Of a DNA stretch of 36,735 nucleotides, positions 13,967-32,970 are shown in pieces. This DNA comes from Fretibacterium fastidiosum. Its GTDB lineage: Bacteria; Synergistota; Synergistia; Synergistales; Aminobacteriaceae. Where the stretch lies: NCBI RefSeq assembly GCF_000210715.1, contig NC_021038.1, positions 674,921 to 711,655 on the forward strand, read 5' to 3'. Every line of letters starts with the position of its first letter. Position 1 is the stretch's first letter. A program made the translations under genes and the position numbers. Under the pieces are notes generated by a model. That model ran no database searches and was not told where the DNA came from. It saw nothing but the letters and a program-made list of their open reading frames with translations.

Positions 13967-13993
13967 GGGGAGCCGGGGTGAGCCCGGCTCCCC
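13967..13993 (-). terminator. Hairpin after the SDR gene
   Basis: GGGGAGCCGGG (13967-13977) pairs perfectly with CCCGGCTCCCC (13983-13993), 26 bases past the SDR stop; on the minus strand ATTATTAA follows. It probably ends or attenuates transcription before the permease gene. Confidence 0.65.
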
Positions 13994-14019
13994 GCACTGC
14001 GCCGGCATGGAGCGCAGGG

Positions 14020-14766: not shown

Positions 14767-14776
14767 GGCGCCGGAG

Positions 14777-16828: not shown

Positions 16829-16871
16829 CTTCAAAAACCTTCCTTTCCTGTCCTACAATCGCCTGTTTTCA

Positions 16872-18365
16872 TCAATCGTCACCCTGCGCCGCTTCCTCGC
16901 GGGCCGCGTCCCTCATGTTGGCGCGCGCGGAGAAGACGACGACCAGGAGCGTGGCGACGATCAGCACGCAGAAGATCGGGTGATTCCAAAACGGGTCGCT
17001 CGAGGTGAGCTGAGAGGCCCGACGCAGGTTCTGTTCAAAGGTCGGGCCGAGGATGAAGCCCAGGATCATGGGGACCGTGGGTATCCTTGCCTTGATCATC
17101 AGGTACGCCATCAGCCCGAAGGCCACCATCGTGTAGGTGTCGAAGATCTGATTTGCGTTGCCGATGGCGCCGATGCCGCACAGCACCAGCACCAGGGGCA
17201 AAAGGTAGTTCTTCGGCACCTTCAGCACCGAGATGAAGAACCTCATGCCCCACAGCATGAAGAACAGCATCATCACGGCCGCGATCAACATGGCGAAGAA
17301 GATGGCGTGGACGACGACGCCGTTCTTCTCGTAGATCAGCGGTCCGGGGGCGACGTTGTGGATCTGAAGCCCTCCCAGCAGCATGGCCGTGACGGCGTCC
17401 CCCGGAATGCCCAGGGACAGGAGCGGGATCATGGCGCCGCCGATGGTGGCGTTGTTTGCCGTCTCGGAGGCGACGACGCCGTCGATGATTCCCGTGCCGT
17501 ACAGCTCCCGATGCTTCGACGTGTTCTTGGACACGGTGTAGGAGATCATGCAGGACACGCCTCCGCCGATGCCCGGCAGGATGCCGATGCCCACGCCGAT
17601 CAGCGCGGAGACGATGGCGTTCCGGATCTGGCCGAAGAACTCGGCGAGGCTGAAGCCCGCTCCCCGGATCCTGACGCTTGCCTCAACCGTGTAGTCCTGT
17701 CTCCGGCGCACCGTTTCCGCAAAGGCCATGACCTCGGAGATGGCGAACAGGCCGATGAGGAGCACCACCAGCGCGAAGCCGTTGTTCAGTTGAAACAGGC
17801 CAAACGTGAAGCGAGGGCGCGAGTCGATGGGGGCCAGCCCCACGGTTGCCAGCAGGGCTCCCAGGATGGCGCTGATCAGCCCCTTGGTCATGTCGGTTCC
17901 CGTCAGGGCGACGACCATGCTGAGGGAGAACAGGGCCAGCGCGCAGTACTCGTAGGACTGAAACTTGAGGGCAAAGGCACAGAGCACCGGGGCCAGGACG
18001 ACCAGGATGGCGATGCCGATGAGCGTCCCGATGAAGGAGAACACCACCCCGACGCCCAACGCCTTCCCGGCCTCTCCCCTGTTCGCCATGGGCTTGCCGT
18101 CGAGGCAGGTGGCGACGGAGGACGGGGTTCCGGGAATATTCAACAGGATGGCAGAGATCAGTCCACCGGAGATGCCCCCGATGTAGAGGGCCATCAACAT
18201 CGCGATCCCCTCGGAGGCGGCCATGGAGTAGGTGAGGGGCAGGAACATGACGACGGCCATCGTGGCGGTCAGGCCTGGGATTGCGCCGAAGACGATGCCC
18301 ACCGCCACGCCGATGGCGATGAACAGGAGGGTGAGCGGCTGGCAGACGGCCAGCAGTCCTTCCAT
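16872..18365 (-). CDS. tctA: Tripartite tricarboxylate transporter large permease TctA
   Basis: About 497 residues with roughly 12 membrane segments form the ion-coupled channel of a TTT importer. Family features are FGAIPGLTATMA near the N terminus, GISGGLISAILLNIPGTPSS, the mirrored GILPGIGGGVSCMISY and LGIPGDAVTAMLLGGL. The ORF has ATG codons at 18371 and 18365; AGAGG touches the first and lies 6 bases from the second, which I prefer. It lies 12-18 bases after tctB. Confidence 0.92.
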   Translation of the reverse strand: MEGLLAVCQPLTLLFIAIGVAVGIVFGAIPGLTATMAVVMFLPLTYSMAASEGIAMLMALYIGGISGGLISAILLNIPGTPSSVATCLDGKPMANRGEAGKALGVGVVFSFIGTLIGIAILVVLAPVLCAFALKFQSYEYCALALFSLSMVVALTGTDMTKGLISAILGALLATVGLAPIDSRPRFTFGLFQLNNGFALVVLLIGLFAISEVMAFAETVRRRQDYTVEASVRIRGAGFSLAEFFGQIRNAIVSALIGVGIGILPGIGGGVSCMISYTVSKNTSKHRELYGTGIIDGVVASETANNATIGGAMIPLLSLGIPGDAVTAMLLGGLQIHNVAPGPLIYEKNGVVVHAIFFAMLIAAVMMLFFMLWGMRFFISVLKVPKNYLLPLVLVLCGIGAIGNANQIFDTYTMVAFGLMAYLMIKARIPTVPMILGFILGPTFEQNLRRASQLTSSDPFWNHPIFCVLIVATLLVVVFSARANMRDAAREEAAQGDD

Positions 18366-18383
18366 GATCATCCTCTATCCCCC

Positions 18384-18911
18384 CTACAGCATGAACTCGC
18401 CGAACGCGCCCGCGGGAAGCAACACGCCCAGCGTCCGCCGAAAGACGTAAAACAAAAGAAAGCCCGTGATGATCGCCGTCACGGCGGCGGGCAGAAGGTT
18501 TCTTCCCCACCGCTCCACAGGGGTGAGGATCAGGATCTGCACGAACGTGTAGGCGACGGTCGCCAGGATAAACCCCGCAGACTCCATGAAGATGACGTAA
18601 AGCGTCAGGGCGACGAAACTCGCGATCACCTCACGCTTCTCCAGAAGGGCGCGCCACAGGGATGTCCGCGCCGGGCGGGCGTTCGCCGCCGTGAAGCGCC
18701 GGTACTTCAACACCCCTCTGACGATCAGCCACAGGCTCAGGAGCATGAGCGATCCACCCCAGAGCCAGGGAACGAAGCGATTGTTGATGGGCGTCGATCC
18801 CAGCCCCTTGAACGCCTGAATGCCCGGAACGTTGCCCATGTAGAACGCGGAGAACAGGGCCAGGATCACGCCGGGAACGATATCCAGCTTATATTGGCCG
18901 TCTTTTTTCAA
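18384..18911 (-). CDS. tctB: Tripartite tricarboxylate transporter small subunit TctB
   Basis: This 175-residue protein has four predicted membrane segments (VIASFVALTLYVIFMESAG, FILATVAYTFVQILIL and others) and a short cytoplasmic loop, typical of the DUF1468/TctB small subunit. It starts with TTG at 18911 behind GGGAGGAG. It is the first gene of the transport cluster on the minus strand. The 90 bases upstream are AT-rich and probably contain the promoter, but I could not fix the boxes. Confidence 0.82.
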   Translation of the reverse strand: MKKDGQYKLDIVPGVILALFSAFYMGNVPGIQAFKGLGSTPINNRFVPWLWGGSLMLLSLWLIVRGVLKYRRFTAANARPARTSLWRALLEKREVIASFVALTLYVIFMESAGFILATVAYTFVQILILTPVERWGRNLLPAAVTAIITGFLLFYVFRRTLGVLLPAGAFGEFML

Positions 18912-19002: not shown

Positions 19003-20163
19003 CTAAAAAAACGACTGACGATAGACGATATTACCGTCTTTAAGCGTCATAAGTGGTACAAATACTTTATTGCCTTGGCAGGACCCACCCCACCAATCAT
19101 AATACACCTCGCTTGTTTTTTGAACGTCCATTAAACAGATATCCGCTGGTTTCCCAACCTCCAAGGTGCCGGCACGGTCCAAAATACCTAGCGCTTTTGC
19201 AGGAGTGTAGGTAACAGCTTTGAGGATGTCCAAGTCCTTCATTCCTGCCGCAGAGTTTACGCACAGAGCATGTATCAGAGAACATCCTGGTTTGACGTAC
19301 ATGCTGTTCCTCACGATATCTGAGCTGATAATATCAGGAAAGAAGTCATCACTATATGCGTTTCTCAGATTTTTAAACGACCAGTGAACGCGCCCATGGC
19401 AGTTATCCATCCAAATACCTCGATCGCGTGCCTGCCTTAGTATGCTGCGAACCTTATTATCTTTGTTAAAAATAGTTTCTCGGTGCGTTTGCATGACATG
19501 CGAAAGGATATCCCCTGTGCGCAGCGCATCCAAGATGGCTTGTAACGTGACATTATCTGGCAAATCGTCATAATGCACGTCTACGATACAGGGAAAACCT
19601 CTTGCCGCTTCAACGTTTTTCGCGATTTCAATAGTGCGCAACAGTGGTTTAATGCCAAAGTCACCTAGGGTCGCACGACACATACGGACCTTCAATCCCC
19701 GAATGACCTCTGGGTATTTTACAGCCAGCTTTATAATTTCGGTTTCGTTGAAGTCCGCCGGGTTGTGATCCTCATCACGCTGAAGGCCACCATTATGAAC
19801 GCCATAAGGAGAAACGTGTATATAGGCCAGTACATTTGTGGTATACCGTACAATATTGTAACGATAAAATCCCTCAAAATTTGTCCAGCCGCTGGTGCCT
19901 GCGTCCACCGCCGTTGTAACACCCATGGGAATGCACAATAAGTCAGCATTAGCACCAATGTTGCTGTTATTGTAATTCAGGTGAACGTGCTCGTCAACTA
20001 ATCCGGGGAGGACGTATTTGCCAGAAGCGTCGATAATAAACCTTGCCTCACTCCCTTCATCTGGTGGTGCAATGAAGCCATCTTTGATGCATATGTTCCT
20101 CTGGCTGGTTTGCATTGTTTGAAAATCAATGACTATCCCGTTCTTGATAATGTGGTCGTACAA
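19003..20163 (-). CDS. Amidohydrolase/deacetylase family metallohydrolase
   Basis: This 386-residue amidohydrolase-superfamily enzyme resembles the dihydroorotase-like PRK09237 group. The metal site shows HVH (H59, H61) after GLVDE, a GLKVRM lysine segment, VDVHYDD, LSHVMQTHRE and a late Asp in ISSDI. The PADICLMDV end with a final beta-sandwich strand is standard. It probably hydrolyses an amide, lactam or acetyl bond in the compound brought in by the TRAP system encoded just upstream; true dihydroorotase activity is unlikely in this context. TTG start behind AAGAGG. Visibly AT-richer than the flanks, like the rest of its operon. Confidence 0.85.
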   Translation of the reverse strand: MYDHIIKNGIVIDFQTMQTSQRNICIKDGFIAPPDEGSEARFIIDASGKYVLPGLVDEHVHLNYNNSNIGANADLLCIPMGVTTAVDAGTSGWTNFEGFYRYNIVRYTTNVLAYIHVSPYGVHNGGLQRDEDHNPADFNETEIIKLAVKYPEVIRGLKVRMCRATLGDFGIKPLLRTIEIAKNVEAARGFPCIVDVHYDDLPDNVTLQAILDALRTGDILSHVMQTHRETIFNKDNKVRSILRQARDRGIWMDNCHGRVHWSFKNLRNAYSDDFFPDIISSDIVRNSMYVKPGCSLIHALCVNSAAGMKDLDILKAVTYTPAKALGILDRAGTLEVGKPADICLMDVQKTSEVYYDWWGGSCQGNKVFVPLMTLKDGNIVYRQSFF

Positions 20164-20186
20164 AACTCAACGCCTCTTTTCTGCTT

Positions 20187-21476
20187 CTAGCGCGCCATCA
20201 TAAGGCGCGGAATCGTTAGCGCGATCTCTGGTATGAAAGACGTTGCCAAAACCATAAGGTACAAAATGATAACGAAAGGCATGGCGTTTCGACTTAGGGT
20301 TGCGATGCTCTGCCCTGTAACGGGCTGTGCCGCGAAAAGGCATAGACCGAAGGGCGGTGTTGCCTGCCCGACGGATAGGTTAAACACGATAATGCACCCC
20401 AAGTGTACGGGGTCAATGCCAAACTTTAAAGCTATAGGATAGACGATTGGTGCGATAATTAAAATGATGGGGCCCGCATCCATAACCATGCCAAGGATAA
20501 GCAGGAGTATGTTGAGTGCCAGAAGAAATTCCGTCTTTGTAGTGATAGCACTTGTTATGGCGTTAGACAACATAACGGGAATGTTATTACGTGTTAATAC
20601 GTAAGAGAACAAAGTCGCCGCCATGATGATCAACATAACGTTAGCCGTCGATTTTACGCTTTCAATCGCGATTTGAATCAATCGCTTCAGTTTTAGCTCA
20701 CGATAGACCCCACATGAGACGAAAAGGCCGTAAATGCACGCTATGGCAGCTGACTCTGTTGGTGTGAAGATGCCAGCGTAAATGCCTCCAAGGACAATAA
20801 TGGGCATCATCAAGGCCCACATGGCGTCCTTCGTCGCATCAAGAAATGCATTGAAGCGAAAGGGAGCTCCTTTTGGCATTTTATGCCGCAATGCATAGAA
20901 ATAGGCATATAGACACATGGCTAAACCACCAAGGAGGCCGGGCAGCACGCCGGACATAAGAAGGCGAGCCACAGACGTGTTTGTCGTTGTACCGTAGACA
21001 ACGAACACGATGCTGGGAGGAATAACAATGCCCAGCGTACCACCGACGACAGGTAACGTTGCAGCATAACCTTTTTTATAGCCATCTTTAACCAGTTCCG
21101 GATAGAAGATGGTGCCGATCGCTGCTGTTGTAGCAACGGACGAGCCAGACAAGGCCGCAAAAAACATACAGGTAATGATTGCAACGATGGACATGCCACC
21201 ACGGATAAAGCTGGTGATAGATTTTGCAAAGGCTATCAGTCGTTTGGCAATACCGCCATGTTGCATGATAGAACCAGCCAGCAGAAAGAAGAATATGGCC
21301 AGCAAGGCATATTTCTCGCTGCCAAGTTCCATCTTCTGAGCGAGAAAAGAGAGAGAAATGCCCGGTATTGACAGACATGCAACCATGCTGGAGAGGGCCA
21401 AGGACCACACTACGGGGACGCCAATCGCTAGAGTAACAGCGAAGCAAAGAGCAAGGAAAAACATGGAAATGGTCAT
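20187..21476 (-). CDS. dctM: TRAP transporter large permease DctM
   Basis: A 429-residue membrane protein of the DctM family, about 12 segments, that couples sodium entry to substrate import. Motifs include GGIAKRLIAFA, ALSGSSVATTAAIGTI, GTLGIVIPPSIVFVVYG, TPTESAAIACIYG and VGQATPPFGLCLF. The start overlaps the dctQ stop as ATGA. The amidohydrolase follows after 23 bases. Confidence 0.92.
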   Translation of the reverse strand: MTISMFFLALCFAVTLAIGVPVVWSLALSSMVACLSIPGISLSFLAQKMELGSEKYALLAIFFFLLAGSIMQHGGIAKRLIAFAKSITSFIRGGMSIVAIITCMFFAALSGSSVATTAAIGTIFYPELVKDGYKKGYAATLPVVGGTLGIVIPPSIVFVVYGTTTNTSVARLLMSGVLPGLLGGLAMCLYAYFYALRHKMPKGAPFRFNAFLDATKDAMWALMMPIIVLGGIYAGIFTPTESAAIACIYGLFVSCGVYRELKLKRLIQIAIESVKSTANVMLIIMAATLFSYVLTRNNIPVMLSNAITSAITTKTEFLLALNILLLILGMVMDAGPIILIIAPIVYPIALKFGIDPVHLGCIIVFNLSVGQATPPFGLCLFAAQPVTGQSIATLSRNAMPFVIILYLMVLATSFIPEIALTIPRLMMAR

Positions 21477-22021
21477 GATTGCGCTTGCTCCATTTCTTTC
21501 TCGGAATTACAAGAAGTTGAAGTGTCGATTCCCATCAATACGCACGTATTTTCAAGAACGTTGATAACTTTATCAAACAGTACCAGCCCAAAGCCCATGG
21601 GAAGCCATAAATAAATGTAAAAATAATTTAGACGAATAGAGGAAAGAAACTGTGGGAATTTACGGGCATGTTTCAGCAATGCGAATCCAGAAACGATAAA
21701 AACTACCAGGGCTACTATGGACAGCGCATCGGTTAGGATATGGAGGGCGGAGTTAGTCCTCTTATTCTTAAATTTCAGGATGTCGACTTTTGTTTCGCTG
21801 TCTGTTTTGACAGCCAGATTTGCGCCAAGCATAATCAAGATGAAGAAGAGAAGAACGCTGACTTGTTCAGACCATGCAAGGCTTGAGTGCAGGACATATC
21901 GGCAAAAAACCTGGGCGCCGTTAATAATCACCATGGCTATGACGCCAAAAAGGATCAATATTTTCTGAATAGAGTACAAAAAATTGTCTGCTTTTTTCAG
22001 TCTAACAAGTAGCTTGAGCAT
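21473..22021 (-). CDS. dctQ: TRAP transporter small permease DctQ
   Basis: A 182-residue four-helix membrane protein. A central AWSEQVSVLLFFILIMLGANLAVKT-like region carries the DctQ family W.EE/SEQ motif. It links the binding protein to DctM. It follows dctP after a gap with a perfect hairpin and overlaps dctM by 4 bases. Confidence 0.88.
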   Translation of the reverse strand: MLKLLVRLKKADNFLYSIQKILILFGVIAMVIINGAQVFCRYVLHSSLAWSEQVSVLLFFILIMLGANLAVKTDSETKVDILKFKNKRTNSALHILTDALSIVALVVFIVSGFALLKHARKFPQFLSSIRLNYFYIYLWLPMGFGLVLFDKVINVLENTCVLMGIDTSTSCNSEKEMEQAQS

Positions 22022-22056
22022 TCTAAAATAGCCCCCCTTCGCTTCCTCTGTTTTGA

Positions 22057-22086
22057 ATCCCTGATGAGGTACACCGCATCAGGGAT
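22057..22086 (-). other. Intercistronic hairpin between dctP and dctQ (AT-rich operon)
   Basis: ATCCCTGATG (22057-22066) and CATCAGGGAT (22077-22086) form a perfect 10-base stem with a 10-base loop. It lies between the binding-protein gene and the permease genes, where partial termination or 3' end protection would give more binding protein than permease. Confidence 0.6.
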
Positions 22087-22119
22087 ATGAACATGAAAGG
22101 ACGCTGTATATGGACGAGA

Positions 22120-23109
22120 TTACCGAATGTTACGGATGCTCTGCACTAGATCGGCATACTCCGGATAGCTGTTGTATACAGAAGCGGTGGCAGCCTGGAG
22201 ATCCGCCTTACTGATTGTTTCAATGAAGGAACACTCTTTTTCTTGAATCAGCGTTTTCAATGCATCAGCGTTAATATCTACAGTCGCCTTACGGAAGATA
22301 GGTGTGCATTCCTTGGCACAGTTGCGGATCAATTCGAGTTGCTCCGAGCTGACTTTTGAGGCAACTTGAGGGGACATCATGAATACAGCTGGAGTAAAGG
22401 CATGTTCTGTCTTGACGATAATGGGATTAACCTCCCAGATGTTGGAGCTTAGCACCTGGGTAAAAGGATTTTCCTCGCCATCGACGGTCCCCTGTTGCAG
22501 GGCAGTGTACAGTTCGCCCCAATCCATAGGAACGGCATCAGCACCTAAGGCCTGAAATAGGGCTTGGTGGATCGCAGACTGCATGGTGCGAATACGAAAG
22601 CCTTTTAGATCCCCGATACTGTTAATCGGGTGTTTTTTTGAGGTCGTGACGTTGCGGAATCCAAGCCCCCACCATGCTAGAGCCTCTATGCCATTGTCTG
22701 CCAAGGCGCTGGTCAATTGGGTTCCGACCTCCCCGTCTAGCGTTTGCCATACGTGCTCATAATCCTCGAACAAGAAAGGCAGGTCAAAAATGGAAACCGT
22801 ATGGCAGAAGTTTGCTATAAAGGTACTGGCTGCGGGGGCCAGATCGATCGTACCACTTTGGACGCCAACGACGTATTCTGACACGGTCCCCAATTGCCCA
22901 TTAGGAAAGATATCTACGATAATTGAACCATTGGACCTCTGCTCAAGCACATTCTTGAATTCAGTCATGCAAGTCCCGAAGAGGCTCCCCTCCGGTGTAT
23001 CTGCATGGGCCAACGTAAGGTGTATCGCGTCAGCAGCCTCAGTTGCAGGACATACAGCAGTCATGAAAGCAATCGCCAAAATTACCGTGCTAAATTTCCA
23101 TCTTATCAT
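22120..23109 (-). CDS. dctP: TRAP transporter substrate-binding protein DctP
   Basis: A 329-residue DctP-family protein with a signal peptide ending near ATEAA. The mature protein has IHLTLAHADTPEG, then GFRIRTMQSAIHQ with the carboxylate-binding Arg, and VPMDWGELYTALQQGTVDGEENP, all family hallmarks. AGGAGGGG precedes the ATG. It is the first gene of the AT-richer operon. In the 66 bases to the LarA-like gene upstream I could not assign a promoter with confidence. Confidence 0.92.
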   Translation of the reverse strand: MIRWKFSTVILAIAFMTAVCPATEAADAIHLTLAHADTPEGSLFGTCMTEFKNVLEQRSNGSIIVDIFPNGQLGTVSEYVVGVQSGTIDLAPAASTFIANFCHTVSIFDLPFLFEDYEHVWQTLDGEVGTQLTSALADNGIEALAWWGLGFRNVTTSKKHPINSIGDLKGFRIRTMQSAIHQALFQALGADAVPMDWGELYTALQQGTVDGEENPFTQVLSSNIWEVNPIIVKTEHAFTPAVFMMSPQVASKVSSEQLELIRNCAKECTPIFRKATVDINADALKTLIQEKECSFIETISKADLQAATASVYNSYPEYADLVQSIRNIR

Positions 23110-23175: not shown

Positions 23176-24468
23176 TCACGCAAGGTCCAGCAGGTTCCCT
23201 ATCCCGTCAAATCGAAGGGGTTGGGGGTCTCCAAGGACCTCCATGCCCTCCGTCGCCCTCGCTTCGTCCATGAGCGCCTCGGAGATCATGACGGAGGCGA
23301 GCGACAGCGTGTTCTTGATGTAGACGACCCGGACCCGTGCCCTGTCCACCCCGGTCAGGGTTTTGATGGCTGCCTGGATAGCGAGCCGGTCGTCCTCCAG
23401 CACCATCGGGATCTTGCCGACCTCCAGCACCGTGGAGGTGAGCATGTTGAGATAGGTCGCGTTCGTCGCGAGTTTTTCGAAGGCTCGGAGCGTGGTCACG
23501 TCCGCCTTCCCCAGGCCGATAAAGCTGCCGTGGCTCTCCTGGGAGATGTCCAGCACCACGACGCGCTGTTTTTTGATGCCGCCCGAGGCGTAGGGGGTGC
23601 CGAACGTCCCCGTCACGTTGGGGTCCATGCCGCTTCCGGAAAAGTTCTTGCCGATCTCCCGAACCACCAGGACGTCCGTCTCCGGAAGGAGGATGCGGGG
23701 CATCCGCCCCCGCGCGTACTCCAGAAGTTCCGGCTCCCTCGCGAAGATATTCTCCGCGGGGAGGACTTCGATCCGGCACGTTTCGTCAAACTCGTTCTCG
23801 ATTAGCCCAACCCCGAAGACGACGTTACAGTGGTCAAAGACGACCCGGGCGTACTGTGGAAGACGCTTGCCCATCGCGCCGAAGCCCGACCGATGGAGCG
23901 AGTCCGCCCCCTCCCGCTTGCCCATGCCGATTGCCATCATCTTGACGAGGCCGGACTCGTAGGGGCCGCGGAAGGCCGTGTGGGGCTTGATTCGTCCCAC
24001 CACGATGACGGCGTCGGCGTCGTGGGCAAACCGGTCCACGCACACCTCGTCACCGTTGTCCAGCTGTCCCACCCGGACGGTCTCCATGCTGGAGAAGATC
24101 CGGCACCCACAGGCTGCCTCGGTGATGCCGTAGCCCTCCAGGATCGCCATCTGCCCCTCGGCGGTGGCCCCTCCGTGGCTGCCCATCGCCGGGATGATCC
24201 AAGGCGTCGCGCCGCACCCTCTGACGAACGCGGCCAGCTCCCGGAGGACGACAGGCATGTTGGAAACCTGGCGGCTGCTGCCCGTCAGGACCACCTTCAT
24301 CCCAGGCTGGATACGGCGCATCAGGTCCTCGCGCATCAGTTTTCCCCGGAGGCAGGAGGAAACGTCCGAAATCCCGTCCCTCTTGAACCTCTGCCGAACC
24401 GTCAGCATTTTCGGGAGGTTCACCGTCCTCAGCACCTCGCGCAACGCAGATTGTTCCTGAATTTTCAC
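23176..24468 (-). CDS. LarA-like (Lar_N domain) protein, putative racemase
   Basis: About 430 residues related to nickel-pincer lactate racemase LarA and the wider DUF2088 family. The N-terminal domain runs through VVLTGSSRQVSNMPVVLREL and IPAMGSHGGAT; the middle has VVGRIKPHTAFRGPYESGLVKMMAIGMGKREGADSLH, with His and Lys where LarA has metal/cofactor ligands, though spacing differs from true LarA. It may therefore racemise or epimerise another 2-hydroxy acid. The ORF opens at 24624, but GTG 24468 sits 7 bases behind AAGGAGG and fits the family start. It follows the hydroxyacid dehydrogenase by 41 bases and is last in the C4-acid operon. Confidence 0.75.
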   Translation of the reverse strand: MKIQEQSALREVLRTVNLPKMLTVRQRFKRDGISDVSSCLRGKLMREDLMRRIQPGMKVVLTGSSRQVSNMPVVLRELAAFVRGCGATPWIIPAMGSHGGATAEGQMAILEGYGITEAACGCRIFSSMETVRVGQLDNGDEVCVDRFAHDADAVIVVGRIKPHTAFRGPYESGLVKMMAIGMGKREGADSLHRSGFGAMGKRLPQYARVVFDHCNVVFGVGLIENEFDETCRIEVLPAENIFAREPELLEYARGRMPRILLPETDVLVVREIGKNFSGSGMDPNVTGTFGTPYASGGIKKQRVVVLDISQESHGSFIGLGKADVTTLRAFEKLATNATYLNMLTSTVLEVGKIPMVLEDDRLAIQAAIKTLTGVDRARVRVVYIKNTLSLASVMISEALMDEARATEGMEVLGDPQPLRFDGIGNLLDLA

Positions 24469-24509
24469 GCTGCCGCCTCCTTTTGCGCCGGTTTTGTCGG
24501 TGCGACGGC

Positions 24510-25505
24510 CTAGTCGGCCTCGGCCCAGTCCCTGCCCGCCCAGATCGGGTGGTCGTACACTGATCGGTCCGCCACGTGGGGCCACTTTTTGCCGCTGCAG
24601 ACGGCGAGGCATCCCCGGACGCACATCTGCGCCATCTTGACGACGGCCTCGCGCGTCTGTGCAGCGGAGTGGGGGCTCAGGATGAGGTTGGGACAGTGCA
24701 GCAGGGGGTCGTCCGGCTTCGGCGGCTCGTGGCAGTAGACGTCCGTACCGGCTCCGGCGATGACGCCGTCCTTCAGTGCGCGGACCAGGTCGCCCTCATC
24801 GATGATACCGCCGCGACTGCAGTTGATGATGAGGGCCGTCCTCTTCATCGAGGCGAGCTGCCTCGCTCCGATCATCCCGCGGGTCTCGTTGGTCAGGGGC
24901 ACGTGGATCGTCACGACGTCCGCCCGCTTCAGCAGGTCTTCGTAGTCGGCGCAGTACAGGGCCCCCAGCGCCTCGATTTTGTCACGGCTCAGGAAGGGGT
25001 CGTAGCCGATCAGCTTCATGCCGCAGCCCCGACAGATCGTCGCCACCTCGCGACCAATGGCGCCCATGCCGACGATGCCCACCGTCTTGCCCTCCAGCTC
25101 AAAGGCCTTGCCAGCCCCTCGAATCTCCCAGTTCCCGGCGCACATCTCGTTCTGTGCCTCCACCAGGTTTTTTGAGAGGGCGAACATCATGGCGACCGCG
25201 TGTTCGGCTACGCTCCGATTGTTGGCGCCCGGCGTGAGCACCACCGGGATGCCGCGCTCGCTGGCCTTCTTCACGTCCACGGTGTCGTAGCCGACGCCGG
25301 TCCGCCCGATGACCTTCAGCCGCGGGCTGTGCTCAATGGCGTTCGCGTCGCACCTGGCGATGCGGACGATCAAGGCGTCCGCGTCCTGAAGGACGTCGAG
25401 GTAGCGGTTGGGGTCCGGATCGTCCGCCACGTGGACGTCGATTGCCCCCATCTTGAGGAGTTCCATCCCCTCAGGACAAAGAGCCTGAGTGAGTACGAAT
25501 TTCAT
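24510..25505 (-). CDS. D-2-hydroxyacid dehydrogenase (SerA-like)
   Basis: A 331-residue NAD-dependent 2-hydroxyacid dehydrogenase. The Rossmann motif is GIVGMGAIG, catalytic Arg in INCSRGGIID, Glu in the CHEPP segment, and His in LSPHSAAQT; GRTGVGYDTVD and TPGANNRSVAEHA complete the family pattern. It lacks the C-terminal ACT domain of long SerA forms, so a catabolic role on an imported or epimerised 2-hydroxy acid is more likely than serine synthesis. GAGGG precedes the ATG. It lies between dctM and the LarA-like gene. Confidence 0.9.
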   Translation of the reverse strand: MKFVLTQALCPEGMELLKMGAIDVHVADDPDPNRYLDVLQDADALIVRIARCDANAIEHSPRLKVIGRTGVGYDTVDVKKASERGIPVVLTPGANNRSVAEHAVAMMFALSKNLVEAQNEMCAGNWEIRGAGKAFELEGKTVGIVGMGAIGREVATICRGCGMKLIGYDPFLSRDKIEALGALYCADYEDLLKRADVVTIHVPLTNETRGMIGARQLASMKRTALIINCSRGGIIDEGDLVRALKDGVIAGAGTDVYCHEPPKPDDPLLHCPNLILSPHSAAQTREAVVKMAQMCVRGCLAVCSGKKWPHVADRSVYDHPIWAGRDWAEAD

Positions 25506-25589
25506 ACCAGATCCCTCGATTCTGCTTTTGCGCTTAATTCAATATTTAGGCTTTACCGCCTCCCTCGGAGGGGGAAGCTCCTCCTGACC

Positions 25590-26888
25590 TCAGCGCACCC
25601 CGTAAAGCAGGTTGGGTAGCCAGGTGGAGAGGAAGGGAACGTAGGTCATCAGCATTAAGATGATAATTAAGAGAGCGTAGAACACGCGGCACTCCCTGAT
25701 GAAATCACCGGTGGTGCAACGGGTCACGCCGCAGGTGACGAACATGAGGTTCCCCATGGGAGGCGTGATGGAGCCGATAGCCATGTTAAAGATGAATATC
25801 ATGCCAAAATGCACGGGGTCAATGCCGAAGGCTACCGCCACCGGGGCTAGCATAGGAGCCAGCACGATCTGCGCCGCCGTGGCTTCCACGAACATCCCCA
25901 CCGCCAGCAGGAAAACGTTCACGGCGAGGAGAAACACGTACTTGTTGTGGCAGAGCGCGATGAGCTCCGCCGTCATGGTCTGGGGGATGTTCTCCCAGGT
26001 TAGAATCCAGCTGAAGCAGGTGGCTGCCCCTACGATCAACATGATGGAGGCGGTGGTGGCTACAGTTTCCTTGATGCAGGTCAAAATGTTGTCCAGGCGG
26101 ATTTCCTGGTAGAGGATGCCCAGCAGGAGGGCGTAGAAGATGGCGATGGACCCGGCCTCAGTGGGGGTGAAGATGCCCATGCGAATGCCGCCGATGATGA
26201 TGATGGGGAGGCACAGGGGCAGGAACGCGGGCTTGAAGGCCTCCCAGAGCTCGTAGATGGTGGCGCGCCTCTCGGAGAGGCGGGGGATGCCGTTCTTCCT
26301 GGAGAAGCGGGATACGATGATCATCATGGCAGCGCATAACACCGCCGCAGGTAGAATACCGGCCACGAACAGGCGGCCGATGGAGGTGCCTGTGATGGAC
26401 CCGTAGATAATGGCGGCGATTCCCGGCGGGATCAGGGGCGTGATCATGGAGGATGCCGCAGTGATGGCGGAGGCGAAGCCATTGGAGTAGCCTGCTTTGC
26501 GCATCTCTGGAACCAAGAGCTGTGCTTCCATGGCGGCGTCTGCCAGGGAAGAGCCGGACATACCTCCCATGAGGGTGGAGAGGGTGATGTTCACCTGGCC
26601 CAGTCCGCCGTACATGTGCTGGGTCAGGACCTTGCAGAACTGGAGCATACGCCCGGTGATGCCGCAGTAGTTCATCAAAACCCCTGTGGCCACGAAGAAT
26701 GGGATGGCCAGCATGGTCACGGACTGCATGCCGCTGATGATGCGTTGGGTGGCCATCATGGCCGTGAAGCCGGTGTCTGGGGCGGAGACGAAGTAGGCGA
26801 TGCAGGCGCCCACCACGGAGGCAAAAACGGGGACGTTGGCGAAGAGCAGCACGAGCATAATGGCTGCCGATAGGGCGATAGGTGACAT
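25590..26888 (-). CDS. dctM: TRAP transporter large permease DctM
   Basis: A 432-residue 12-segment permease with family motifs GGMSGSSLADAAMEAQLLVPEM, PLIPPGIAAIIYG, TPTEAGSIAIFYALLLG and IGSITPPMGNLMF. It forms one importer with the dctQ and dctP genes just upstream; stop and start share one base with dctQ (TAATG). GC-rich like the rest of the operon, unlike the second DctM at 20187-21476, so the two systems have different histories. Confidence 0.93.
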   Translation of the reverse strand: MSPIALSAAIMLVLLFANVPVFASVVGACIAYFVSAPDTGFTAMMATQRIISGMQSVTMLAIPFFVATGVLMNYCGITGRMLQFCKVLTQHMYGGLGQVNITLSTLMGGMSGSSLADAAMEAQLLVPEMRKAGYSNGFASAITAASSMITPLIPPGIAAIIYGSITGTSIGRLFVAGILPAAVLCAAMMIIVSRFSRKNGIPRLSERRATIYELWEAFKPAFLPLCLPIIIIGGIRMGIFTPTEAGSIAIFYALLLGILYQEIRLDNILTCIKETVATTASIMLIVGAATCFSWILTWENIPQTMTAELIALCHNKYVFLLAVNVFLLAVGMFVEATAAQIVLAPMLAPVAVAFGIDPVHFGMIFIFNMAIGSITPPMGNLMFVTCGVTRCTTGDFIRECRVFYALLIIILMLMTYVPFLSTWLPNLLYGVR

Positions 26889-27385
26889 TATGCCTCAGCT
26901 CCTTCCTCTTGCGCAGCTTCCCTGTTCCGGAGGAATTTGTCCCAGGCTATAAGGCTGTACTGGATGATCATCAGCACGCACCCGATGGGAACCGCCAAAT
27001 CAATGAGGCTGTAGCTGATCTTGAAATAGGGTGTAACCTTCTTCGTTACGGACATCATCAGCTGATAGCCTCCCTTTGTAAGGTAGGCCAGGACCAGGAC
27101 CGTGATGAGATAGTCCACGATGTCCAGGATACACCGGGCCCTGGGGCTGAGGCGCACGGCGATCAGGTCGATGCTGACCTGACTGCCCGTGCGGAAGGCG
27201 ACGCTGCCACCGAAGAAGATCGTCCAAATGAAGAAGAATATCTGCATCTCCTCCATCCAAGCGAAGGGTCGTCCCATCACCTTCCGCATGAAGACACCGG
27301 CCACCGTCATCACCACGATGAGCACCAGTCCCACGCCGGCGACCAACGTGTCCAGGTTCAAAAGTGCGTTCAGTGTCTTTTTCAT
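26888..27385 (-). CDS. dctQ: TRAP transporter small permease DctQ
   Basis: A 165-residue four-helix protein with the DctQ pattern FAWMEEMQIFFFIWTIFFGG and a FRTGSQVSIDL loop. It bridges DctP and DctM. A hairpin fills the 57-base gap to dctP. Confidence 0.9.
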   Translation of the reverse strand: MKKTLNALLNLDTLVAGVGLVLIVVMTVAGVFMRKVMGRPFAWMEEMQIFFFIWTIFFGGSVAFRTGSQVSIDLIAVRLSPRARCILDIVDYLITVLVLAYLTKGGYQLMMSVTKKVTPYFKISYSLIDLAVPIGCVLMIIQYSLIAWDKFLRNREAAQEEGAEA

Positions 27386-27401
27386 GTCGACTCCTCTGTC
27401 A

Positions 27402-27435
27402 TCAGGAGGAGCGGGCGTGCCGCCGCCCCTCCTGA
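27402..27435 (-). other. Intercistronic hairpin between dctP and dctQ (C4-acid operon)
   Basis: TCAGGAGG (27402-27409) pairs with CCTCCTGA (27428-27435); one mismatch further in, the stem continues through GC pairs. It occupies the same place in the operon as the hairpin at 22057-22086 but has an unrelated sequence. Confidence 0.6.
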
Positions 27436-27442
27436 CCGATCC

Positions 27443-28456
27443 CTAATGATTGATAATGGCCTGGATTTTGTCGTAAAGCCCCTTAGACCAGGTACCTTTC
27501 TCCTCGTATTCCTTGTAGAGCTTCACACAGGCATCCTTGAACTCCGCCTGGGCGGCCTCGTCCAGGGTGATGATGGTGCAACCCTCGTCGGTGAGGGCTT
27601 GTTGCATCTTCTGGCTGACCTGCTGGTAGAGGTCGTTGTTGTAGAGGGCCGCCTCCTTGCCGCAGGAAACAATGGCCTCCTGGTACTTCGGGGGTAGCTT
27701 GTCCCAGAAAGTCTTCCCCACGATGAAGTTGGAGAAGGTCATCTGGTGGTTTGTCATGGTGACGTTCTTGCAAACCTCCTGGAATTTGTTGTTGTAGAGG
27801 GTAGTCAGGGGGTTCTCAACGCCGTCCACCACGCCCTGGCTCAGGGCGGTATACACCTCGCTGAGCGCCATGGGGGTGGAGGCTGCGCCCAGGTCGTTGA
27901 ACATGGTGACGGAGATGTCGTTGTTGGGGACGCGAATCTTCAGTCCCTTCATGTCCGCCAGGCTCTTGACGGGGCTGCGGGTCATCAGTTGACGCTCGCC
28001 ATACACCCAGTTGGTGGAGATGATCTTCAGGCCCTGCTCCTCAAGCTGAGCGGCGACCTCCCCCCACCAGTCGCTGTCGGTGATCTGATACATAGCGGAC
28101 CATTCGGAGAACAGGAAGGGGCCCATGACCACGCCGAAGTCCGGTACGTAGTCCATGAGGTAGGAGCCGTCGGCGATTGTACATACGTTCTGCCCCATGA
28201 GCATCATTTCGATGAGGTCGGCCTTGGCTCCCAGTTGGCTGGAGGGGTACACTTGAATCTTGACGGCACCGTCCGTGGCCTTGCTCACGAGCTCCGCCCA
28301 TCGGTCGCAGCCGTCGTCGATGGGGTCGCCATCCGTCTGCTCAGTGCAGAGCTTCAATACGAACTTCGCCTCGGTGGCGGAAGCCATGGAAGCGCTCCCG
28401 CTGATTACGCTCAAAGCCAGTCCCAGAGTCAGCAAAAGAGCAAGCGTTTTCTTCAT
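27443..28456 (-). CDS. dctP: TRAP transporter substrate-binding protein DctP
   Basis: A 337-residue DctP-family protein. Signal peptide MKKTLALLLTLGLALSVISG, then FVLKLCTEQTDGDPIDDG, GLKIRVPNND with the carboxylate-binding Arg, and TPMALSEVYTALSQGVVDGVENP. Its position after a pdxA-type gene and with a DUF1537 kinase in the same operon suggests a four-carbon sugar acid as ligand. That is inference from context; the pocket cannot be read for specificity. Confidence 0.93.
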   Translation of the reverse strand: MKKTLALLLTLGLALSVISGSASMASATEAKFVLKLCTEQTDGDPIDDGCDRWAELVSKATDGAVKIQVYPSSQLGAKADLIEMMLMGQNVCTIADGSYLMDYVPDFGVVMGPFLFSEWSAMYQITDSDWWGEVAAQLEEQGLKIISTNWVYGERQLMTRSPVKSLADMKGLKIRVPNNDISVTMFNDLGAASTPMALSEVYTALSQGVVDGVENPLTTLYNNKFQEVCKNVTMTNHQMTFSNFIVGKTFWDKLPPKYQEAIVSCGKEAALYNNDLYQQVSQKMQQALTDEGCTIITLDEAAQAEFKDACVKLYKEYEEKGTWSKGLYDKIQAIINH

Positions 28457-28502
28457 AACAATGAACTCCTTCTTAAAGTTGAGCTCGGTTACCGGCTCAG
28501 TT

Positions 28503-29576
28503 TTACCCCCGGTGCTCCGCCAGCCGGATGCCGTAGTCCATCGCGTTGACCAGGCTCAGGGCGTTGGCGCCGCCGCTGCCGGCGTGGCCGTACCCCGTGC
28601 CGTGGTCCACGCTGGCGCGAATGATCGGCAGGCCGAGCGTCACGTTGACCCCCGCCACGGCCTCCCAGCGCTTTTCGGCCTTGTTGTAGACGAATCCTTT
28701 CACCTTCAGGGGGATGTGCCCCTGGTCGTGGTACATGGCCACCACGATGTCGTACCAGCCGCCGATGGCCTTGCTGAAGATCGTGTCGGGTGGCGTGGGC
28801 TTGCGGTCGGGGACGTTGATCCCCTGAGCCAGCGCCGTGTCGATGGCCGGCTGAATCTCCTGAATATCCTCCGTGCCGAACATGCCGTTCTCGCCGCAGT
28901 GGGGGTTCAGGCCCGCCACCCCGACCTTCGGGTCCCGGATGCCCAGAGCCAGACAGGCGTCGTTTGCAATTCGGATGCAGTCCAGCACCCGTTCCTTCTT
29001 CACCCGATCGCAGGCCTCGCGGAGGGAGACGTGGGTGGAGACGTGGACGACGCGCAGGTTCTCGTGGGCCAGCATCATGGTGTACTTCTGCGTGTGCGTG
29101 TAGTCGGCGTAGATCTCCGTGTGTCCCGAATAGTGGTGCCCCGCCAGGTTGATGGCCTCCTTGCTGAGGGCGTTCGTGACCGTGGCGTCCACCGTGCCCG
29201 CCATCGCCATCTGGATGACCCTCACCACGTACTGAAACGCGGCCTCGCCGCCCAGCTTCGTGACCCCCAGTCCAAAGGGTTTCGGGGCCGCCGGGTCGCC
29301 GGGGATGTCGGAGGCCTTCACGAGGCCCAGGTCGAGGACGTCAATGACGCCGGGGGTGAAGGCGGCCTCGCTCACGGCCTTGACGGGCCGGACCTCCAGG
29401 TCCGCTCCGGAGAGCGTCCGGGCCGCCGCCGCGGCGTATCGGATGCTGGATGCATCGCCCACCACGAGGGGACGGCAGCGATCGTAGACCGCCGCGTCGG
29501 CCAGGGCCTTGACGGTGATCTCCGGCCCGTTGCCGAAGGGGTCCCCCATGGTGATGCCGAGGATGGGTTTGTCCAT
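28503..29576 (-). CDS. PdxA family 4-phospho-hydroxyacid dehydrogenase
   Basis: A 357-residue member of the PdxA family, with ITMGDPFGNGPEI at the N terminus, the GHYSGHTEIYADY stretch and the metal-binding His in AMYHDQGHIPLK. Canonical PdxA oxidises 4-phospho-L-threonine in vitamin B6 synthesis. The PdxA2 branch, found next to DUF1537 kinases, oxidises and decarboxylates 4-phospho-D-threonate or erythronate to dihydroxyacetone phosphate. The same-operon kinase and TRAP importer favour the second role. AAGGAGG precedes the ATG. Confidence 0.85.
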   Translation of the reverse strand: MDKPILGITMGDPFGNGPEITVKALADAAVYDRCRPLVVGDASSIRYAAAAARTLSGADLEVRPVKAVSEAAFTPGVIDVLDLGLVKASDIPGDPAAPKPFGLGVTKLGGEAAFQYVVRVIQMAMAGTVDATVTNALSKEAINLAGHHYSGHTEIYADYTHTQKYTMMLAHENLRVVHVSTHVSLREACDRVKKERVLDCIRIANDACLALGIRDPKVGVAGLNPHCGENGMFGTEDIQEIQPAIDTALAQGINVPDRKPTPPDTIFSKAIGGWYDIVVAMYHDQGHIPLKVKGFVYNKAEKRWEAVAGVNVTLGLPIIRASVDHGTGYGHAGSGGANALSLVNAMDYGIRLAEHRG

Positions 29577-29611
29577 GGAACATGCCTCCTTAAGAAAGAC
29601 AGGCTGCGGGC

Positions 29612-30520
29612 CTAATGGAGCCCGTTCTCCCTGCAGTGCTCCAGGGCCTCCTTCAGCGCCTTCATGCCTTCGTCGGACAGGCGACAGAAGGGCCTGCGGC
29701 AGGCCCCGACGGGATAGCCCAGAAGCCCCGTGGCGATCTTGATGATCGTGTTGGGGTTGCCGTACTTGAAGCAGTTTCGGAAGGTGCGGATGCTGTCCTG
29801 GACCCTCATAGCCCGTTTGAGGTCCCCGGCGGCGAAGGCCTCGTAGATCTCCGCCATGGTGTGAGGGAAGACGTTGGCGCAGCCCGCGATGCCGCCCCTG
29901 CCTCCGAAGACCAGCCCGGGCAGGATCAGGGCGTCGTTGCCGGAGAGGACGCTGAAGTCCTTGTCCAGGGCGCTCGTCAGCTCGATGTACTGCTTGAGGT
30001 TGTCGAAGTTCCCGCTCGAGTCCTTGGCCCCTGCGATGTTGGGGGCGTCCCTGGCCAGGCGGGCCACCGTGGCGGGCGCCAGGGCGTTGCCCGTGCGGGG
30101 CGGGATGTTGTAGAGCACGATGGGCAGGTCGACGGCCTCGGCCACCGCCATGTAGTGGTCGTAGAGCTCGTCCTGAGAGGCCGCGGCGTAGAAGGGAGCC
30201 ACGATGGAGAGGGCGTCGGCGCCCAGCTCCTGAGCCCGACGGCTCAGCCGGACGGTGTCCGCCGTGGTGATGAAGCCTGTCCCGGCGTAGACGGGGACCC
30301 GCCCCCGCACCTCGTCGACAACAGCCGTCAGCACGCGCTCCTTCTCCGCGTCGCTCAGGGCGTAGCCCTCTCCGTTGGTCCCAAAGGCGAAGATGCCGTG
30401 GATGCCCGCGTCGATCATGCGGCGGACCTGGCTGCGAAGCTCCCCCTCGTTGACGCTCTCGTCCTCGTTCATGGGGGTCAGGATGGGGACGATGATGCCC
30501 CTCATGTCGATCTTCTTCAA
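29612..30520 (-). CDS. DapA/NAL superfamily lyase
   Basis: A 302-residue class I aldolase-fold protein with a GTNGEGYALS motif for the carboxylate, Tyr in LYNIPPRTGN and the Schiff-base Lys in AGAKDSSGN. Family members split or condense pyruvate with an aldehyde (dihydrodipicolinate synthase, N-acetylneuraminate lyase, KDG aldolase). In a sugar-acid operon a catabolic 2-keto-acid aldolase is more likely than lysine synthesis, but the sequence does not decide the substrate. Confidence 0.88.
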   Translation of the reverse strand: MKKIDMRGIIVPILTPMNEDESVNEGELRSQVRRMIDAGIHGIFAFGTNGEGYALSDAEKERVLTAVVDEVRGRVPVYAGTGFITTADTVRLSRRAQELGADALSIVAPFYAAASQDELYDHYMAVAEAVDLPIVLYNIPPRTGNALAPATVARLARDAPNIAGAKDSSGNFDNLKQYIELTSALDKDFSVLSGNDALILPGLVFGGRGGIAGCANVFPHTMAEIYEAFAAGDLKRAMRVQDSIRTFRNCFKYGNPNTIIKIATGLLGYPVGACRRPFCRLSDEGMKALKEALEHCRENGLH

Positions 30521-30563
30521 GGTCGTTCTCCTCCTCTGTCCTTCCTGTTCGGCTCGTAAAATG

Positions 30564-31718
30564 CTACAGGATCTCCTGATAGATCCGGCGGGCGTCCTCC
30601 TCCGTGACGGGGCGACGGTTGTTCACCAGGAGGCGCGTGACCTGCATTCCAGACTGTACCAGCGATTCCAGGTCTTCCTTGGGCACGTTGAACTCCTGCA
30701 GGCTGACGGGGATGTCGAGGTGTCTAACGATCTCCTCGATGCGGGTGATGACGGCTGCGCTCTTGGCCTCCGTCGAGGAGGCGTCGCCGTGGATGCAGCG
30801 GTCGTAGGCGTGGGCCAGCAGCTCTCGACAGGCGGGCTCGTTGAAGCGCATCACGGGCGCCAGCAGGATGGCGTTGGAGACGCCGTGGGCGATGTGATAC
30901 CTGCCTCCGAGGGGGTAGCTCAGCGCATGGACTGCCGTGGTGCCGGAGGCCGTGATGGCGATGCCGCCGTAGAAGCTCGCGATCTGCATCATGCGCTTGG
31001 CCTCCATGGCCTTCGGGTCGTCACAGGCCCGCTCGATGTTGTTCAGGATCATGTCGAGGGCCTGAAGGGCGAAGATGTCGCTGAAGGGGTTGGCCTTGTT
31101 GCTGGTGTAGCACTCGATGGCGTGGGCCAGGGCGTCCAGCCCCGTGGCCGCCGCGATCTTGCGGGGGAGCTTCTTGACCATCACGGCGTCCAGGACGACG
31201 TAGTCCGCGATCATGCGCGGGTTGACGATGCCCACCTTCAGCTCCTTTTCGGGCACGGCCACGATGGCGTTGGGCGTGGCCTCGGCCCCCGTCCCCGCCG
31301 TGGTGGGAATCATGAGGGTCTTGACGTGCTTGCGGGCGCGGCCGGGGTCCTCCAGAAGCTCCTTGATCCCGTACTCGTCGGTCATCAGGACGCTCGACAG
31401 CTTCGCCGTGTCCATGACGCTGCCGCCGCCCACGGCCATGATGAAGTCCGCTCCGCTCTCGCGGCACTGGTCCACCAGCTTCTGAGCCTGAGCGTAGGAG
31501 GGCTCGGCCGGCAGGTCGTCCAGGACGGTGAACTCGACGCCCGTCCTGCGCACCTCCGCCATGGGGGGCTCCAGGAGCCCTGCGCCCTCGATCCCCTTGT
31601 CGGTGAAGACGGCCAGCTTCTTCACGCCGTTTTCGGCCAAGACGTTGCCCACGTTCGTCAGCGCGTCCTCGCCGCTGTAGACCGCGCTCGGCATCTTCAG
31701 ATCGTACTTCGTCAGCAT
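30564..31718 (-). CDS. Iron-containing alcohol dehydrogenase
   Basis: A 384-residue group III alcohol dehydrogenase. The NAD motif is AVGGGSVMDTAK, metal-ligand His residues lie in LDALAHAIECY and HIAHGVSNAIL, and the fold is of normal length. It interconverts an alcohol and an aldehyde or ketone, perhaps a 4-hydroxy acid or the aldehyde from the neighbouring lyase. The frame is open to 31934, but ATG 31718 follows GAGAGGAG and shares one base with the kinase stop (TGATG), so I place the start there. Confidence 0.9.
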   Translation of the reverse strand: MLTKYDLKMPSAVYSGEDALTNVGNVLAENGVKKLAVFTDKGIEGAGLLEPPMAEVRRTGVEFTVLDDLPAEPSYAQAQKLVDQCRESGADFIMAVGGGSVMDTAKLSSVLMTDEYGIKELLEDPGRARKHVKTLMIPTTAGTGAEATPNAIVAVPEKELKVGIVNPRMIADYVVLDAVMVKKLPRKIAAATGLDALAHAIECYTSNKANPFSDIFALQALDMILNNIERACDDPKAMEAKRMMQIASFYGGIAITASGTTAVHALSYPLGGRYHIAHGVSNAILLAPVMRFNEPACRELLAHAYDRCIHGDASSTEAKSAAVITRIEEIVRHLDIPVSLQEFNVPKEDLESLVQSGMQVTRLLVNNRRPVTEEDARRIYQEIL

Positions 31719-32970
31719 CAGGCTTTCTCCTCTCTCCCGGCGCCAATCCGGTCGGCCAGGCAGCACAAAAGGTCCGGTTTGCCAAACCCTCCGGACTTGG
31801 CAAGGATGTAACGGGCCCTTCCCCCGTAGACGAAACTCGTCAGGACGACGCCCGGAGCCATCTCGCAGACGGGCGTCAACTCGTGCGTCCCCACGGCCTG
31901 CATCAGGGCCAGCAGCGTGTCCCCGCCGACGCACAGCAGCGTGGCCTCGAGCCCTCGGTCCAGAAGTCCCTTGGTCAACTCAGCCAGCGCTTTGGACACC
32001 CGAACCCGGGTCTGGGGCAGGCTCAGTCCCATGGCCGCGGCCCGCTCCTGCGTCTCTGCGCTTCCCTCCGGGTCGTTCGTGTCCAGGATCACCCGGCCGT
32101 ACCGACGGGCCCTCGCCAGGCAGTCCTCGATCAGGGCGGAGCTCTCGTTCTCCGACGGCCAGGCCTCATCGAGCTTCTGCCGCACGCTGAGATGGACGTG
32201 CTGGAAGCCGCAGCCCTCGGCGGCGGCCGTCTGGCGCCGCGTCACGGGGTTGACGCTGCCGCAGGCCATGAGGAGGTGCCGGGGGCGAGGGAGGGGACCG
32301 CGGCGGGGCGCGCGGCCGGCATCAGGAGGTCTGCCAGGACCGAGGCGAATCCGGCGCAGCCCGCCGACAGGCGCAGGCCCTCCGGGCCGAGGGCGCGTGC
32401 GGTGAGCTTCAGGTCCTCGTCCGTCGTGGCGTCGTAGACCTGGATGCCCTGGCCCATCCCCGGCTCCCCCGGCCTGCGGACGAAGACCGCCTTTGACGTC
32501 TGCTGGGCGATGACGTCGCCGATCCGGGAGAAGCGCACGGGCTCGAAGGGGTCCCGACCGAAGACGCTCTGGTCCAGGGGCAGGCCGTCCACGTACTGGA
32601 CGCCGTCCCGCGTGATCCGGCCCATGGAGGGGAAGGCGGGGACGAAGGGCAGGCTCTGAACGCCCGCTGCGTCCATGGCGGCCGCCAGCTCGCTGCCGAC
32701 GTTCCCTCGAAGCCCGGAGTCCGTCTTCTTGTAGATGTAGGGGACGCCCGCGCGAAGTGCCGCCGACACGGCACGGTGGACCGCCGCGTAGGCGGCCTCC
32801 GGCGCGAGGTGCCGCGTCTCGGTGTCCAGCACCAGCACCTGCGCTTCGTCCCGGCTGAAGTCCCGATCGAGGTCCGTCACGACCCGCGTGGAGGCCCCAC
32901 GGGCCACGAACTGCACGCCCGTGTCCAACGCTCCCGTAAAGTCATCGGCTACGATCAAAAGGGATACCAT
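31718..32970 (-). CDS. DUF1537 four-carbon acid sugar kinase (frameshifted)
   Basis: The N-terminal part (MVSLLIVADDFTGALDTGVQF, KKTDSGLRGNVG) and C-terminal part (MACGSVNPVTRRQ, LCVGGDTLLALM) of an OtnK/DtnK-type kinase lie in two frames. The break is at a five-G run on the plus strand (32281-32285): one more base restores APRHLLMACGSVNP and a 417-residue protein of normal length. DUF1537 kinases phosphorylate D-threonate, L-threonate or D-erythronate at the 4-OH. It is the first gene of the minus-strand operon, behind a GAGGGG site. Whether the break is real, programmed or a sequencing error cannot be told from one sequence. An in-frame ATG at 32269 begins the second half but has no ribosome site. 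Confidence 0.85.

Follow-up and report, generated by a model that had tools for sequence, protein, structure and literature searches.

Together with a PdxA homologue, a DUF1537 kinase reportedly degrades D-threonate (Zhang et al. 2016). This pathway is cited in the accessible text of PMC7954711 and PMC10580937. A gene cluster of related composition lies on the minus strand of the stretch analysed here, 36,735 nucleotides of Fretibacterium fastidiosum (G000:C1:674921-711655, hereafter the window; G000 is its own genome, and L- and G-numbers denote the loci and genomes compared). Read from 32970 down to 23176, the cluster comprises a DUF1537 kinase, an iron-containing alcohol dehydrogenase (FeADH), a DapA-family lyase, a PdxA homologue, a DctP-DctQ-DctM importer, a 2-hydroxyacid dehydrogenase (2HADH) and a LarA-like protein, all with Pfam and NCBIfam support. 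These are the proteins that a first-pass annotation had named, and that gene observation is confirmed. The conserved core is the quartet of kinase, FeADH, DapA lyase and PdxA homologue; sequence comparison shows it again in both Synergistota and Lachnospiraceae, in most cases with no LarA alongside. The genes are as follows.

31718-32970, minus strand: DUF1537 four-carbon-acid kinase, split (PF07005, 158 bits; PF17042, 82 bits)
30564-31718, minus strand: FeADH, proposed C4-semialdehyde reductase (PF00465, PF25137)
29612-30520, minus strand: DapA-family lyase with Asn45, Arg138 and Ser163 in DHDPS numbering (PF00701 and residue comparison)
28503-29576, minus strand: PdxA homologue, proposed D-threonate 4-phosphate dehydrogenase (PF04166, 302 bits)
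25590-28456, minus strand: TRAP importer 1, with DctP at 28456-27443, DctQ at 27385-26888 and DctM at 26888-25590 (Pfam)
24510-25505, minus strand: D-2-hydroxyacid dehydrogenase (the 2HADH), nearest to the PGDH/SerA model (PF02826; TIGR01327, 314 bits, under its cut-off)
23176-24468, minus strand: LarA homologue of NPN isomerase group 22 (LarAH22), with a GTG start after AAAGGAGG (NF052515, 501 bits)

The association of the four core genes, as read from their neighbourhoods, is strong. The module lyase (alignment A3) was searched in 397 Lachnospiraceae genomes; 32 gave a match at 1e-95 and 27 contexts were fetched. Of the five other genomes, G186 harbours the cluster L133, and the remaining four matched less well. 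Within 6 kb of the lyase, the distance used for all neighbour counts around it, PdxA is present in 27/27 of these loci, the kinase and FeADH in 25 each, a homologue of the divergent regulator described below in 18 and LarAH22 in none. The full quartet is found in 23 of the 27, or 24 if L255 is included, where a single open reading frame (ORF) of 818 residues (L255:7665-10118, minus strand) carries complete DUF1537 kinase and FeADH domains, the only case of such a fusion. In Synergistota, the lyase occurs in 24 of 185 genomes, and 20 loci were examined, the other four genomes (G000, G060, G087 and G089) having been seen before. Near the lyase, these further loci contain FeADH (19/20), PdxA (15/20), the kinase (13/20) and an SDR gene (5/20), with LarAH22 in 0/20 and the full quartet in 11/20; three incomplete loci (L268, L270, L272) end at contig ends, and L266 and L269 are incomplete without explanation. 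Because the same gene set is found again in other genera and in another phylum, the cluster is not a chance arrangement. Furthermore, the intergenic gaps across 32970-23176 do not exceed 84 bases, which makes a single transcript for these genes plausible.

The motifs GTNGE, NIPxRT and KDSSG are kept in all module lyases read (8/8, 27/27 Lachnospiraceae and 20/20 Synergistota), and the active-site set Thr-Asn-Tyr-Arg-Lys-Ser in 8/8. According to the accessible part of PMC3188589, the substrate of human HOGA is contacted at its distal carboxylate by Asn78 and at its 4-hydroxyl by Ser198, positions at which DHDPS has Thr45 and Ala163; Arg138 of DHDPS binds aspartate semialdehyde, and its HOGA equivalent is Asn173. 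The module lyase shares the Schiff-base lysine and the tyrosine with both enzymes. Its asparagine and serine, present in 8/8, are those of HOGA and replace the DHDPS pair, whereas its arginine is that of DHDPS and replaces Asn173, a combination found in neither enzyme as described there. In contrast, other DapA proteins of the same relatives (L212-L214) show Thr-Thr-Tyr-Arg-Lys-Ala as in DHDPS. At the four variable positions these read Thr-Thr-Arg-Ala, and two other DHDPS-family proteins (L215, L216) read Thr-Ser-Lys-Ser; the control L217 was left out of the residue comparison, having no readable frame. The Asn, Arg and Ser combination thus suggests a hydroxylated, carboxylate-bearing substrate, and the residues would point to retro-aldol cleavage of a 4-hydroxy-2-oxo acid with a carboxylate at its far end.

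The PdxA homologue (PDB relatives 4jqp, 2hi1 and 6e85) shares its cluster with the DUF1537 kinase, and PdxJ, looked for in the window's genome, was not found, which is the context of a D-threonate-type PdxA and disfavours a role in vitamin B6 synthesis. The earlier view of kinase and PdxA as a four-carbon-acid core accompanied by extra enzymes is supported by these observations. The module PdxAs, including that of the window, contain an 11-residue insertion (the KGFVYNKAEKRWEAVAG region) near the active site, which is not in the aligned structures 4jqp and 2hi1 nor in L055 and L056. A second DUF1537 kinase of the same genome (G000:C1:2169325, L039) has an intact frame of 440 residues and no PdxA or DapA relatives nearby.

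A linear catabolic route can be proposed on this basis. The lyase would split pyruvate off a C7 2-keto-3-deoxy dicarboxylate, and FeADH would reduce the C4 semialdehyde acid left over to a tetronate, most likely D-threonate. The kinase would then phosphorylate the new C4 hydroxyl, and the PdxA homologue would oxidize C3 with decarboxylation, yielding dihydroxyacetone phosphate (DHAP), CO2 and NADH, both steps as in the established D-threonate pathway. TctABC would handle import, and this strain has TRAP systems besides. Gene content, co-conservation, the LarAH22 fold and the active-site residues are observed; the first two steps, the size and stereochemistry of the substrate and the part played by LarAH22 are inferred. 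We consider this route as a whole, with LarAH22 and 2HADH as accessory enzymes, to have a little less than an even chance of being correct. The first-pass annotation had the flow in the opposite direction, from LarA through 2HADH into the lyase, which is not supported; a flow from the lyase and FeADH to the kinase agrees better with the data, the kinase-FeADH fusion included, and replaces the earlier pathway. A C7 2-keto-3-deoxy aldarate is proposed because that size makes all four steps fit. 3-Deoxy-D-manno-octulosonate (KDO) was rejected, as its cleavage would give pyruvate and arabinose and no C4 acid, and so were C6 aldarates, which would give glycerate, not decarboxylable by PdxA. By Fischer-projection reasoning, 3-deoxy-D-lyxo-hept-2-ulosarate (DHA), a rare C7 acid of the pectin rhamnogalacturonan II (RG-II), would fit: with the D-lyxo configuration at C4-C6, loss of pyruvate and reduction of the aldehyde would leave D-threonate. 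As a hypothesis for the substrate, it is tentatively suggested that the quartet serves DHA catabolism, with LarAH22 attached in some species as a nickel-pincer erythronate/threonate 2-epimerase. A search of the open-access literature for a DHA catabolic route found no paper, and in the accessible text of PMC6353982 DHA is merely listed as an RG-II monomer.

The LarA homologue scores 500.9 bits against NF052515 (NPN isomerase group 22; cut-off 400). Its AlphaFold model (pLDDT 83.7) has LarA-family structures as its top 12 matches, with Z-scores of 19.2-22.6 and root-mean-square deviations of 3.4-5.0 over 299-332 residues, and the next match has a Z-score of 5.8. The twelfth structure, 4nar, is titled by UniProt code only, and we take it to be a LarA homologue. 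A sequence search of the PDB with the same protein gave only a chance match. Residues H92, H157, K170 and H186 are invariant in 11/11 sequences; H92 and H157 align to the catalytic H108 and H174 of LarA, and K170 and H186 presumably correspond, by LarA motifs, to K184 (cofactor) and H200 (nickel). The group 17 LarA of PMC12611868 was discarded as a guide, belonging, in the accessible text, to a different subfamily with a His to Asn change. A second LarAH22 gene in the window's genome (C1:1249433-1250596, L038) adjoins another DctP-DctQ-DctM set.

After removal of four duplicate loci (L132, L154, L158, L208), 172 LarAH22 genes in 169 loci were compared. For ten of them, a kinase and a PdxA gene lie no more than 8 kb away in the same orientation. 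Two more can be added: the gene of the window, in which the set is interrupted by an insertion, and that of L153, with a divergent kinase. All six enzyme types occur together in L084, L097, L131, L133 and the window. On a FastTree phylogeny, the kinase/PdxA state of the 14 genes so labelled, which include L085 and L094 cut by contig ends, requires 8 changes, so that the association was gained or lost several times. LarAH22 also stands beside galactarate/altronate-dehydratase-type genes in 31 loci; thus, no single pathway can be assigned to the family at large. LarC is present in 6/8 Synergistota genomes with LarAH22 beside kinase and/or PdxA in one fetched stretch (the exceptions are the window's genome and G054) and in 5/5 further genomes searched; given its presence in 157/185 Synergistota genomes, this co-occurrence is merely compatible evidence. 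A literature search for DUF1537 together with lactate racemase found no paper.

D-Erythronate and D-threonate are C2 epimers. Both accessory enzymes would act at C2: LarAH22 most likely converts D-erythronate to D-threonate, and the SerA-like 2HADH most likely reduces 2-keto-tetronate to D-erythronate. Since DapA, FeADH, kinase and PdxA occur mostly without LarA, neither enzyme need feed the lyase. The simplest reading, we infer, is an accessory pair through which D-erythronate, or its 2-keto form, could also enter the route. In the accessible text of PMC7954711, E. coli SerA can oxidize erythronate to 3,4-dihydroxy-2-oxobutyrate.

The cluster extends past 23176, and on the other side a divergent regulator belongs to it.

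19003-23109, minus strand: TRAP importer 2 (DctP, DctQ, DctM) and a metallo-dependent amidohydrolase, low in third-position GC (GC3)
15878-18911, minus strand: TctB-TctA-TctC tripartite tricarboxylate transporter, core importer (PF07331, PF01970, PF03401)
10210-15781, minus strand: TAXI-type binding protein, SDR, fused TRAP permease and FAD protein (Pfam/NCBIfam)
33145 to about 34975, plus strand: divergent PrpR_N/sigma-54-type regulator, frameshifted at about 34897 (PF06506, 162 bits)

The genes at 18911-10210 trail the same enzymes in the synergistote locus L084, whose order is kinase-FeADH-DapA-PdxA-2HADH-LarAH22-TctB-TctA-TctC-TAXI-SDR-fused TRAP-FAD protein. Relative to L084, the window has TRAP 1 in addition between PdxA and 2HADH, and TRAP 2 with the amidohydrolase between LarAH22 and TctB; TRAP 1 is likewise not in the sister clusters L097 and L131. 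GC3 is 0.78-0.83 in the TRAP 1 block compared with 0.86-0.93 in the flanking enzyme genes, and 0.46-0.54 in the TRAP 2 block compared with 0.83-0.94 in genes outside both TRAP blocks. The latter difference indicates that TRAP 2 and the amidohydrolase are a recent insertion. A set of the TRAP 2/amidohydrolase type adjoins 2HADH in the Lachnospiraceae loci L134 and L247, and a literature search on the function of this amidohydrolase (COG3964) gave one passing mention in another paper. TctABC trails LarAH22 in L084, L097 and L131 and is probably the core importer, with the TRAP systems added in this strain. The TRAP importer that had been taken as part of the system is a local insertion, the sister clusters using TctABC instead. 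If the reading is right, the cluster also illustrates how insertions can supply a pathway with further importers (TRAP) and how a C2-epimerase can be attached to it. Across clusters the transporters belong to the TctABC, TRAP and CitMHS families; in the 27 Lachnospiraceae loci, ABC permeases accompany the quartet in 8, CitMHS in 6 and DUF386 in 3. In the Clostridia metagenome-assembled genome with L131, an HpcH/HpaI-type aldolase-like gene (L131:14474-15292, plus strand; 63 bits to HpaI, below cut-off) lies downstream of TctC. Elsewhere in the window, 5851-8514 (plus strand) encodes a large repetitive protein with a glycine-rich C-terminus, a hydrophobic stretch and RRK, presumably resembling a Synergist-CTERM sorting signal.

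Several observations weigh against the proposed route. Intact relatives of the kinase score 154-202 against the kinase equivalog NF047819 (cut-off 450), and the PdxA homologue reaches 291.5 bits against the D-threonate 4-phosphate dehydrogenase equivalog NF002891 (cut-off 583). FeADH-DapA stands without kinase or PdxA in 4/20 Synergistota loci (L281-L284), so the quartet is not strict. The inserted DctP of TRAP 1 has 4ovt and 4o8m as its nearest solved relatives, which we take to be C6 aldonate binders; a literature search on 4OVT, 4O8M and EFI-510153 found nothing, and TRAP 1, an inserted block whose structural neighbours bear titles that stop short of the ligand, was dropped as a substrate guide. 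In favour of the route, 14/27 of the fetched Lachnospiraceae stretches contain a sialidase-like BNR_2 gene, which in six of them (L240, L242, L243, L249, L258, L260) is placed among the four core genes; its products have Asp boxes, but His at the position of the GH33 RIP arginine, and they may not be ulosonidases. In the window's genome LarE was found and LarC was not; the likely source assembly contains, according to the accessible text of PMC11984142, 9.95% Ns. Finally, both the kinase and the regulator are broken in this assembly. The kinase consists of two overlapping pieces in different frames, the SBD_N part at 32970-32242 and the NBD_C part at 32269-31718. Both domains of a DUF1537 D-threonate kinase (PF07005, PF17042) are thus present without an intact single frame, and the orthologues of L131 and L097 are single ORFs. 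Two frameshifts inside about 3 kb could mean that the pathway is decaying in this strain, but the regulator break sits in a run of seven G, the kinase break is one frameshift in C-rich sequence (about 32270-32310), every other cluster gene is open, and the window probably comes from an older draft assembly that contains gaps. In the text cited above, GCA_000210715.1 of F. fastidiosum SGP1 comprises 362 contigs, and a closed SGP1 genome has a GC content of 63.17% and a length of 2.85 Mb. Both breaks have the look of sequencing errors, and genuine decay is unlikely.

The same genes could also form two branches in one operon, in which kinase and PdxA, with LarAH22 as erythronate/threonate 2-epimerase, take free C4 acids to DHAP, and DapA and FeADH act on another 2-keto-3-deoxy acid, releasing pyruvate and forming a reduced alcohol that serves as an electron sink. 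This arrangement would account for kinase-PdxA-LarAH22 sets without DapA and FeADH (L055, L056/L058, L115, L142, L168 and, with its divergent kinase, L153), for the FeADH-DapA pairs of L281-L284, and for the nearest PDB relatives of FeADH, which are methanol dehydrogenases, ADH2 and lactaldehyde reductases. The four genes nevertheless stand together in 34/47 further loci even with L255 excluded, and in L255 the kinase is fused to FeADH; the two-branch explanation is rather doubtful. Far less probable is the flow in which LarAH22 epimerizes and 2HADH oxidizes C2 of a C4 acid for cleavage by the lyase. For 26/172 LarAH22 genes, a 2HADH gene is indeed present no more than 8 kb away on the same strand, and the oxidation of erythronate by SerA noted above agrees with it, but the lyase is without LarAH22 in 47/47 further loci and has 2HADH nearby in only 8/47; moreover, formaldehyde and hydroxypyruvate would be expected from the cleavage of a C4 2-keto acid that is not deoxy, and no gene for handling them is apparent. 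A biosynthetic assignment, in which PdxA would serve vitamin B6 synthesis and DapA that of lysine/diaminopimelate, can draw on scores above cut-off for PdxA (TIGR00557, 291.0 against 290.35) and DapA (TIGR00674, 227 against 206), and on the operon DapA being the sole DHDPS-family gene found in G000. Against it stand the negative PdxJ search, the 9.95% Ns of the likely source assembly (PMC11984142, accessible text), the further DHDPS-family genes carried by all four module-bearing relatives, and the canonical DHDPS residues in the three further DapAs read, from which the operon lyase departs. The vitamin B6 and lysine readings, dropped for the PdxJ result and the lyase residues, have almost no probability left.

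If the linear route from lyase to PdxA holds, it would name a complete anaerobic path for a pectin sugar acid with no breakdown route found in the open-access literature, give a testable function to DapA-family and iron-alcohol-dehydrogenase subfamilies of bacteria from the gut, the rumen and the mouth, and offer a candidate substrate for the nickel enzymes of LarA group 22.

Compared with the D-threonate pathway, the cluster has the same kinase Pfam pair beside a PdxA homologue and binding-protein-dependent importers, but adds the DapA lyase and FeADH to the core, with LarAH22 and the SerA-like 2HADH as accessories. The window protein shares the family score, the LarA fold and the catalytic and cofactor residues with LarA superfamily group 22, to which the accessible texts of PMC7583248 and PMC11770544 assign no substrate, whereas the context here points to C4 sugar acids. 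In sialic acid catabolism, which combines a sialidase, NanQ-like DUF386 and NanA, a similar neighbourhood is encountered, with a DapA-family lyase near the sialidase-like gene and DUF386 in Lachnospiraceae at the frequencies given above; in contrast, the downstream kinase and PdxA would demand a C4 acid, not N-acetylmannosamine. The glucarate/galactarate route GarD-GarL-GarR-GarK follows the same logic of lyase, semialdehyde reductase and kinase on a 2-keto-3-deoxy aldarate, but employs other protein families, and the one additional carbon proposed here would yield a tetronate that PdxA can decarboxylate.

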